This document shows, piece after piece, positions 17,143-21,575 of a stretch of 30,034 nt of DNA. The notes beneath the pieces were generated by a model that was not told the DNA's origin, searched no databases, and saw only the letters and a program-made list of their open reading frames with translations. Numbering within the stretch: position 1 is the first letter of the stretch; every line of letters begins with the position of its first letter. The translations under genes were made by a program, and so were the position numbers. Source of the stretch: a virus; IMG/VR virus record IMGVR_UViG_3300019758_000021, positions 1 to 30,034 of that record; one strand, written 5' to 3'.

Positions 17143-18402
17143 TTATTTGCCGTAGTTAACCGACAACTCTATTTGTGACATAACGCTTTCGAACGAGTAT
17201 TCAAAAGCATCAAGTGTATCAATATTGCTGGTGCCATCATCTAAACGTACATCAACCATTTTGGTGTTATCTTCCCAAACAGCACCGCTAAAAGCATCAA
17301 TAGTAATATCGCAACAATCCAAAATATAAAACCGTCGTTTCCCGAACATCATGTTTTCAAACCTTATGCGCTCGTTAATTTCTCGTTTCATAGAATTGTT
17401 AACCTTTATTCCAAAGCCGTTTTTAATTAATGACGATTGCAAACCGTTTTTTAATACTTGTTCGGCGCTATCTGCCCAAACGCCCATTATTTGATACTGC
17501 GGGTAAAATGCACTTATTTGTTTAACGAACTTAATAAATTCTAAGTTTAGTTTATCAGGATCCATTTGTTCCGTTTTACGGTAATCTTTTAACGCGTAAA
17601 TGCGCCTTAAATCACTAGATATAAACGTTGCGTTAAAAGCTTGCCCCGACTTGTTGCCACCAAAGTCAACGCCTATTTGAATAAACCCCTGTTCGCCTTC
17701 AGGTAATTTAGGTATTATAAACTCACTCTTTTTTCTTATAAAATGAGGATAACAAGAACCTTCAGCAGCAACCCATCGACCTAATATAAATCTATCAAAG
17801 TATACAGTTCCTTGATATTCAAGTTCTAAGGCTTTAATAAACTCAGCATCAAGATAAGTGTTGTCATAAATGGTAAATTGTCTCCATGCTAAATCAACAC
17901 CCTTTTGTTCTGATTCTTCTTGCCACTTTTTAAGCCAATGATTAGGAGCATCAGGGTTACACGTCGCATCACAACATGCTTCCTTAGAATCAAGCCTTGA
18001 TTGAAGCATCATAAAAACGTCTTTGTGGTGAGTTGTCAATTCGTCTAGGTATGCGTATATCAATCCGGCACCTTGTATCTTCGTAACAGCTCGCTTGTTA
18101 TCAGCTCCAACAACGCGCATTTTACGACCAAATATATTGCAGTAGTTTATCCCGTCAGAGCCTTTCTTGACCTCGGAAACGTGTTCGTAACCAAATATAC
18201 CGCGCATAGGTTCAAGAACGTTGTACGATAACGTAGAAAGCGTTTTTCCTATCATTATCATATTGCCTTCTGGCAACTCAGCAATGCGGTAAGGAACTTT
18301 AAAATAAGAACCGTGCGTCTTGCCTGATCTAGTGGCCCCATAATCAATATTCCAGCGGTGATGCCTGTCATTGATAGTTTCTATCTGCTTAGGTGTAAAC
18401 AT
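17143..18402 (-). CDS. terL: terminase large subunit, PBSX/Terminase_3 type
   Basis: A 419-residue packaging motor and nuclease. It shows Walker A GATRSGKTH (residues 22-30), a coupling region with RAVTKIQGAGLIYAY, Walker B LIYAYLDE (114-121) and the RNase H-like nuclease with acidic residues in GVDFGGNKSGQ, GVWADSAEQV and NIDTLDAFEYSF. PBSX-type large subunits are usually found in headful (pac) phages. The ATG overlaps the last base of the small subunit stop (TAATG). All catalytic motifs look intact. Confidence 0.94.
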   Translation of the reverse strand: MFTPKQIETINDRHHRWNIDYGATRSGKTHGSYFKVPYRIAELPEGNMIMIGKTLSTLSYNVLEPMRGIFGYEHVSEVKKGSDGINYCNIFGRKMRVVGADNKRAVTKIQGAGLIYAYLDELTTHHKDVFMMLQSRLDSKEACCDATCNPDAPNHWLKKWQEESEQKGVDLAWRQFTIYDNTYLDAEFIKALELEYQGTVYFDRFILGRWVAAEGSCYPHFIRKKSEFIIPKLPEGEQGFIQIGVDFGGNKSGQAFNATFISSDLRRIYALKDYRKTEQMDPDKLNLEFIKFVKQISAFYPQYQIMGVWADSAEQVLKNGLQSSLIKNGFGIKVNNSMKREINERIRFENMMFGKRRFYILDCCDITIDAFSGAVWEDNTKMVDVRLDDGTSNIDTLDAFEYSFESVMSQIELSVNYGK

Positions 18403-18998
18403 TACTTCACCGCCTTGTCAAGAGACTTAATAAGGCTTTCTAAAGCCGACTCTTGATTAACTTTATCGTTAGTTTTTGTTTTCTTTTCAAACTCAAACTT
18501 TTCTCGATCAAGCTTAATTTTTTCTTCATCATATCGATTAAATGGCTTATCCATCCACTTCTCTTTTTGTCGGTTCTTTAACCAAAACGCTTGCGCCCCA
18601 ACGTTGGGAGGTGTATAAACTTCATCAATAGCTTCTATAATTACATCAACCATTATTAATCTACCCATCTTATCGTAAATAAGTTCGTCGTTTTTATCTT
18701 TTAGTGGTTGCCTTACCTTAAAAGCTTTTTTTAGTTGAGTTACATGACCTAAAGCGGTTTTATAAACAGCGTTTTCAACTTCTCGATCAGCTACCTCTTT
18801 TGTATTTTTTAAGACTTCCGAAAATTCCTCATATTCAAGTTTATATTTATTGAAAGATGAATAAGCTATTTTAAGGTTTATAGCAATTTGTTTTTCGCTA
18901 AGACCATCAAGGCACCATGCTTTAATGTCGTTAAATCTTGGTTTTACATGAGTTTCATATTTGTTTTTTCGACCTGATTTCTTTTTACTTTTAGCAAT
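18402..18998 (-). CDS. terS: terminase small subunit with a non-canonical start
   Basis: An open frame of 198 codons. The N-terminal part (SGRKNKYETHVKPRFNDIKA, then DGLSEKQIAINLKIAYSSFN, a helix-turn-helix) is the typical DNA-binding start of phage small terminases. The C-terminal part (AQAFWLKNRQKEKWMDKPFN) is typical of the oligomer and TerL-binding end. There is no ATG, GTG or TTG in frame until codon 111 (18668), which has no SD and would drop the HTH. A strong SD (AGGTGGTGG) precedes ATT at 18998 by 6 nt. An ATG 4 nt upstream (19002) is in another frame and meets TAA after two codons. I conclude either an AUU start or a +1 frameshift. Confidence 0.82.
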   Translation of the reverse strand: MAKSKKKSGRKNKYETHVKPRFNDIKAWCLDGLSEKQIAINLKIAYSSFNKYKLEYEEFSEVLKNTKEVADREVENAVYKTALGHVTQLKKAFKVRQPLKDKNDELIYDKMGRLIMVDVIIEAIDEVYTPPNVGAQAFWLKNRQKEKWMDKPFNRYDEEKIKLDREKFEFEKKTKTNDKVNQESALESLIKSLDKAVK

Positions 18999-19022
18999 AC
19001 ATAACCACCACCTTTCTATTCA

Positions 19023-19031
19023 ATTATAACA
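19023..19031 (-). promoter_or_regulatory. extended -10 promoter of the packaging operon
   Basis: On the minus strand TGTTATAAT (19031-19023), a TGn-extended -10, lies right after a terminator and 20 nt before the SD of the terminase small subunit. The -35 at 17 bp (TTTAGG) is poor. It would start the packaging and head transcript. Confidence 0.55.
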
Positions 19032-19032
19032 C

Positions 19033-19057
19033 AAAAGAAAAACCACCTAAAGGCGGT
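19033..19057 (-). terminator. terminator at the end of operon 3
   Basis: On the minus strand the stem ACCGCC/GGTGGT (19057-19052 / 19047-19042, one G-U pair) with a TTTA loop is followed by TTTTTCTTTT (19041-19033). It closes operon 3, and the packaging operon's extended -10 begins immediately after. Confidence 0.75.
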
Positions 19058-19067
19058 TAATCTAGTG

Positions 19068-20757: not shown

Positions 20758-20850
20758 CTACATAAACATAATCAAAATCAAAACAATAAACAAAATACCG
20801 ACAACTTCTTCTAACTTCTCGCTTTTGCTCTTTTCTTTCCACTTTTTCAT
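20758..20850 (-). CDS. 30-residue single-span membrane microprotein
   Basis: A short frame of 30 codons: a charged N-terminus MKKWKEKSKSEKLEE and then a hydrophobic segment VVGILFIVLILIMFM that ends at the stop. Its ATG overlaps the stop of the PAPS-reductase-family gene (ATGA), and the SD AAAGGAG is at ideal distance. It is followed 11 nt later by the next gene start. Too short for routine gene calling, but the SD, the coupling and a clean membrane segment argue that it is real. Confidence 0.65.
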   Translation of the reverse strand: MKKWKEKSKSEKLEEVVGILFIVLILIMFM

Positions 20851-21575
20851 TGTTTGTCTCCTTTCAAATTAAGTTGCAAACCTTCTCTTTTAAACCTTTG
20901 TTCTAATTCGTCAAGACTTTTGTTTTTCATATTATCGCCAATTTCGCGCTCTAACCATTTTAAATAACTCCATGTTTCGGGCATTTTAAAATAAATGTTC
21001 TTTAATTCTTTCAAGTTTTTGTTTCTACAACACTTACAACTAACTCGATCAAGAATTTCGTACAAACCACCCCAATCAAAACCCATGTCATAACAAAACT
21101 TTAACGCTTCTGACTCAACGATATTCCACTCGTTAAGAGGGTATCGTATTTCCCACTTCTTGTTATTGCCAATGGCTATCCTCTCGGGTTCATCGTGCGC
21201 TATTCCTTGGTATTCGATAATTTCGTTGTTGTATTTTTCTCTAATGTATTTAGAAAAAATATTTTTCTTATACTGAGTACCCCATCTACAAAGACCTCCA
21301 CACCATCCGTAACCTTTAGAACCTTTGTTTTTTCCTTTCTTTTTTTCGTATTCTAGCATGTAATACTCAAAGTCGTGTTCAAATTTAAGTGTTGTAAATT
21401 TGATGTCGTGAAAATTAAGGATTGATTTAACACTTTCAATATGTTTGTACATTTGTGGAAACTCTGCTGTTGTGTCGATAAAAACCACTTCATCAACTTT
21501 CATGCCGTTGGCAAGCATCGTCAAAAGCATTGCTGTGCTGTCTTTTCCGCCACTAAAACTAACTATGTGATTCAA
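20847..21575 (-). CDS. PAPS-reductase-family (PP-loop) protein
   Basis: A 242-residue protein of the adenine nucleotide alpha-hydrolase superfamily. The PP-loop SGGKDST lies at residues 8-14, GIAHDEPERI (125-134) corresponds to the second nucleotide-binding motif, and cysteines C92, C96 and the cluster C180, C182, C183 (CKCC) suggest a metal or Fe-S site as in DndC-like members. True PAPS reductase has a C-terminal redox Cys motif not seen here, so the substrate is open. The start is a TTG directly after the stop of the Cro-like gene, with AAAGGAG as SD. It is the second gene of operon 3. Confidence 0.85.
   Translation of the reverse strand: MNHIVSFSGGKDSTAMLLTMLANGMKVDEVVFIDTTAEFPQMYKHIESVKSILNFHDIKFTTLKFEHDFEYYMLEYEKKKGKNKGSKGYGWCGGLCRWGTQYKKNIFSKYIREKYNNEIIEYQGIAHDEPERIAIGNNKKWEIRYPLNEWNIVESEALKFCYDMGFDWGGLYEILDRVSCKCCRNKNLKELKNIYFKMPETWSYLKWLEREIGDNMKNKSLDELEQRFKREGLQLNLKGDKQ

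Follow-up and report, generated by a model that had tools for sequence, protein, structure and literature searches.

AUU initiation limits the level of protein made from E. coli infC and pcnB. A conserved near-cognate start behind an extended Shine-Dalgarno sequence (SD) has been shown by ribosome profiling for the S. aureus chromosomal genes cvfC1, ccpN and infC, and in cvfC1 and ccpN reporters AUU or AUA starts with an extended SD give about 10% of the AUG level (PMC13009471, which also cites the AUU start of pcnB). Among phage genes, which are not represented in the S. aureus set, terS (orf28) of the Streptococcus thermophilus phage TP-J34 was annotated from AUU by its authors, and the region was resequenced in TP-J34 and TP-EW (PMC3952083). 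AUU initiation is already known, then, from infC, pcnB, the recent S. aureus work and, singly, the terS genes of TP-J34 and O1205, and the terS gene described here very probably joins these examples. A literature search, with subscription journals mostly outside its coverage, returned no report that near-cognate starts recur in terS, and this recurrence appears to be unreported within the literature searched.

The stretch of DNA analysed here (the window) comprises 30,034 bases of an IMG/VR virus record with 35% G+C, and its packaging, head and tail genes lie on the minus strand. The gene order terS-terL-portal was confirmed, with terL directly after terS. We also observed a phosphoadenosine phosphosulfate reductase-like gene (PHROG 424) at 20847-21575, upstream of the packaging module. 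The features around the terS start, including those shared with a close relative that we designate L002, are as follows.

17143..18402, minus strand: terL, large terminase subunit, with an ordinary ATG start.
18402..18998, minus strand: terS, small terminase subunit, 198 aa; PHROG 309 profile match, E 1.4e-38.
18405..18446, minus strand: C-terminal tail ALESLIKSLDKAVK, shared with the otherwise unrelated TerS of L002 (sequence comparison).
18979..18998, minus strand: start region common to the window and L002, the rest of TerS differing (sequence comparison).
18991..19002, minus strand: out-of-frame mini-ORF ATG TAT TGC TAA (M-Y-C-stop) over the AUU start, a possible decoy (direct reading).
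18996..18998, minus strand: ATT, putative AUU start codon of terS; the only plausible in-frame start, aligned with the initiator Met of homologues.
19006..19015, minus strand: Shine-Dalgarno sequence AAAGGTGGTG, in the register common to L002 (AAAGGCGGTGAT).
19023..19031, minus strand: extended -10 promoter-like sequence TGTTATAAT, read by eye; conserved in L002.
19041..19058, minus strand: intrinsic terminator 5' of terS, found computationally; conserved in L002.

The terS frame runs from ATT(18998) GCT AAA AGT to TAA at 18404-18402 and is intact over 198 codons. The original prediction held that this frame encodes a small terminase, that no canonical start occurs before codon 111 and that a strong SD lies 6 nt before the ATT, and all three points were borne out. 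The PHROG 309 (terminase small subunit) match covers the 198-aa product from residue 3. In frame, no ATG, GTG or TTG precedes codon 111, an ATG at 18668, from which only 88 aa would be made, without the conserved N-terminal half. The SD, AGGTGGTGG, has one mismatch and ends 6 nt 5' of the ATT. Across the start the minus strand reads AGAAAGGTGGTGGTT-ATG(19002)TATTGCTAA, and the bases before terS are AAAGGTGGTGGTT-ATG-T-ATT-GCT-AAA. With the GGAGG-equivalent core as reference, the spacer to the ATT is 9 nt, near the long limit, versus 5 nt to the out-of-frame ATG; L002, scored in the same registers, likewise gives 9 and 5, and the spacers to the start in relatives are 7-9 nt. Reading the window in genetic code 4 (TGA as Trp) opens only a GTG 48 nt upstream, within the terminator, and this code was rejected; TGA ends 7 of the 41 listed window genes, which counts against it. 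A promoter scan of the region upstream of terS found no sigma-70 -35/-10 hexamer pair, and the extended -10 sequence suggests a putative terS leader of only about 20 nt. Folding of the leader RNA gave a stability no greater than that of shuffled sequences.

The alignment of the start region that had been proposed with the original prediction placed the initiator Met-Ala-Lys of the homologues exactly on the ATT-GCT-AAA of the window, and the ATT is kept in relatives. The closest homologue within the phage collection, from Fusobacterium phage Funu2, also has ATT (GAGGTGATAACA-ATT-GCT-AAA); its record places the terS start at an ATG 5' of the SD. The ATT is retained in five related Fusobacterium-type TerS sequences. 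A direct search of viral contigs for close relatives of the window TerS found none, and a search for the exact leader pattern gave L002 as its single match.

In its flanks, L002 (IMGVR_UViG_3300019766_000007) is 98% identical to the window downstream and 95% identical upstream, and its terS belongs to a different family (PF03592/PHROG 51, versus PHROG 309 in the window). Despite this unrelated TerS body, L002 has the identical ATGTATTGC start. Its start region is AAAGGCGGTGATG-ATG-T-ATT-GCA-AAT-AGC-AAA-AAG, the terS frame being closed by a TGA two codons 5' of the ATT, and the shared start differs from that of the window at three bases, each of them the third base of a codon in the ATT frame. 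Because the same ATT start is present in these two divergent genomes, a sequencing or assembly slip is ruled out. The two genomes thus differ by an exchange of the TerS body (window 18402-18998, L002:3435-4001), in which the middle was replaced and the leader, the first 7 codons and the 14 C-terminal residues (ALE[SG]LIKSLDKAVK) were kept. A comparable swap was seen between TP-J34 and SW15/20617.

In TP-J34, with its O1205 and Sfi11 relatives, the terS AUU stands behind AAGGAGGTGG. The ATGTATTG arrangement and a terminator just upstream are as in the window, whereas TP-J34 TerS belongs to PHROG 51 and the leaders are otherwise unrelated. The TP-J34 start reads AAGGAGGTGG-ATGT-ATTGGGCTAAAT. Across nine S. 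thermophilus phages AAGGAGGTGG and ATTGGGCTAAATCAACGAC, which contains the ATT, are invariant, and the four intervening bases are ATGT, ATTT or ACAT. An ATG precedes the ATT in TP-J34, Sfi11 and SW15; in O1205, P4761, CHPC676, CHPC577, 20617 and SW20, ATTT or ACAT replaces ATGT and the ATT is kept. Since the ATG varies while the ATT is invariant, the ATG is dispensable and the ATT is not.

Further PHROG 309 TerS sequences have an ATT, ATA or ATC start (L042, L086, L125, L158, L160, L176, L205, L351, L366 and L411), and one has CTG (L070). In a FastTree phylogeny covering 162 TerS sequences, near-cognate starts require 10 changes, at least five of them forced by well-supported branches. Starts were called by a single rule, in which canonical codons received a bonus of 3-4 kcal on top of the SD strength. 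Among the PHROG 309 TerS recovered with peptide patterns, a near-cognate start with a strong SD, at or below -10, was present in 8 of 158, versus none of the 149 TerL in those loci, after false calls, for TerL internal ones, had been discarded by eye. The automatic non-canonical calls for L068, L102, L050, L077, L085 and L155 were dropped in this way, an ATG being adjacent or the site internal. For PHROG 51 TerS found by profile in prophages of Bacilli the count was 10/73 (ATT 4, ATC 3, ATA 2, CTG 1), with ATG in only 34; the TerL of this set had ATG in 55/65 and a near-cognate start in 0-1/65, the sole ATT call being internal to the frame. A further PHROG 309 set gave 1/27, from the same genome as L125, and 0-1/23 for TerL. 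Pooled, AUU, AUC, AUA or CUG with a strong SD stood at the homologous start of 19/258 TerS, versus 0/237 or 2/237 for the adjacent terL (Fisher p 4e-6, or 2e-4 with the two doubtful TerL cases counted, related sequences being treated as independent). In one group of prophages a near-identical leader, GGTGAtGGAAA, is followed by ATG, GTG, TTG, CTG, ATA or ATC and then by the conserved TerS N-terminus.

An 80-locus PF03592 sample of viral contigs contained no clear near-cognate start, indicating that the pattern is concentrated in Bacillota- and Fusobacterium-type phages, and no match came from a pattern search covering seven genomes from a single streptococcal genus. With ATG as the control, pattern scans did not reveal TerS specificity: 42 of the 68 start-like ATG matches in the control scan were themselves TerS. 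Because MAKxKY is itself TerS-typical, such scans are uninformative on this point, and specificity rests on the TerL comparison and the profile-found sets. Near-cognate starts also appear outside terS. A 472-aa phage gene in L523, L532, L584 and L606 has an apparent ATA start behind AAGGAGGTGGCCATC, and a 131-aa gene in L523 and L532 has an apparent ATC start. Two Lachnospiraceae TerS, in L098 (about 1489-1504) and L167 (about 1444-1459), have AGG at the homologous start (AGG GCA AAA GGA AAR TAT), shortly after a TGA and with no usable near-cognate codon. In a Tissierella TerS (L169, 1480-1520) the SD and the ATG, which have six A between them, are out of frame by a single base; slippage or a homopolymer change is the probable cause.

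The original prediction had offered either an AUU start or a +1 frameshift, in which translation would begin at the 19002 ATG and ribosomes would slip into the terS frame by skipping one base at UGC-UAA. A short frame stops just before the main frame, as it does in prfB, and the ATG, 5 nt from the SD, is at a good distance and is conserved in L002, TP-J34, Sfi11 and SW15. However, unlike in prfB, the slip site is not conserved in terS and relatives lack the AUG, so that the zero frame does not show a conserved start, slip codon and stop together. The zero frame of L002 from the upstream ATG is AUG UAU UGC AAA UAG, without UGC-UAA; the six S. thermophilus phages with ATTT or ACAT in place of ATGT still keep the ATT; and L042, L176 and L411 combine a near-cognate start and a strong SD with no AUG between the two. 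Judged from these alignments, AUU initiation is much better supported, with the homologous start position, the SD, L002, the Fusobacterium and S. thermophilus phages and the TP-J34 annotation on its side, and we regard the frameshift as highly improbable. It is just as hard to credit that the ATT arose from an ATG only recently, by an inactivating mutation or a sequencing error. Although the two differ by one substitution, the identical ATT is found in the divergent L002 and in phages of both Fusobacterium and S. thermophilus, one of them resequenced, and behind it the differences are all third-position and the frame is unbroken.

Packaging sites are often located in terS. This, together with the conservation of the leader and first codons where TerS bodies have been swapped, raises the question of whether a different constraint, such as a packaging site, holds the start-region DNA constant and the AUU is a side effect. 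We consider this very unlikely, because the start codons alternate among ATG, GTG, TTG, CTG, ATA and ATC at the same place behind the same SD, and base identity is thus not fixed as a binding site would need. A different reading accepts the AUU start as real and makes the overlapping AUG mini-ORF functional, either as a decoy that competes for ribosomes or as a termination-reinitiation device. AUGUAUUG recurs in the window lineage, upstream of TerS genes of both families (PHROG 309 and PF03592), and some S. thermophilus phages have it too. Both members of the window lineage retain the AUG; L002 has a counterpart of the mini-ORF (ATGTATTGCAAATAG), and one is present in some of the S. thermophilus phages and missing from others; and L125 and L160 likewise have an out-of-frame ATG 5' of the ATT. 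Yet the AUG is missing from most other near-cognate terS starts, and in some an SD ending in GGTGATG yields an ATG by itself. A function for the mini-ORF is therefore conceivable but rather unlikely.

We conclude that TerS of the window is, with high probability, translated from the AUU at 18998, where a strong SD combined with an inefficient codon would give low TerS relative to TerL. The strong SD would position the ribosome at the AUU, which the initiator tRNA would read inefficiently; because the AUU would be read by this tRNA, TerS should begin with fMet-Ala-Lys. The low yield relative to TerL would keep the DNA-recognition subunit scarce and would probably be sensitive to IF3. In the window lineage, the out-of-frame AUG 4 nt upstream may divert more ribosomes into a three-codon dead end. 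The IF3 made from E. coli infC feeds back on the expression of its own gene, whereas no such loop is expected for TerS. The S. aureus starts were established by ribosome profiling and those of terS are read from sequence. The pairing of a near-cognate start with an extended SD in terS is most likely a form of translational throttling, and a lowered TerS level fits the S. aureus AUU/AUA reporter data.

Gene finders usually take only AUG, GUG and UUG, so that terS starts of this type end up cut short, lengthened or overlooked. In public records the terS annotation is shifted for Funu2 and Sfi11 and truncated for P4761, CHPC676, SW15 and 20617 (loci L009, L620, L622, L623, L625 and L626), apparently through failure to recognise the AUU start.

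More broadly, the evidence tips towards a general pattern in which start-codon throttling of terS would recur across two or more TerS families and several groups of hosts. An extended, strong SD would be paired with AUU, AUC, AUA or CUG, or with the milder UUG or GUG, and the codon, often swapped, would act as an evolutionary dial of TerS dose; packaging might then be sensitive to IF3 or to the translation state of the host. If this pattern is true, phage DNA packaging would be controlled at a conserved point by the dose of TerS, which the strength of the start codon would set.
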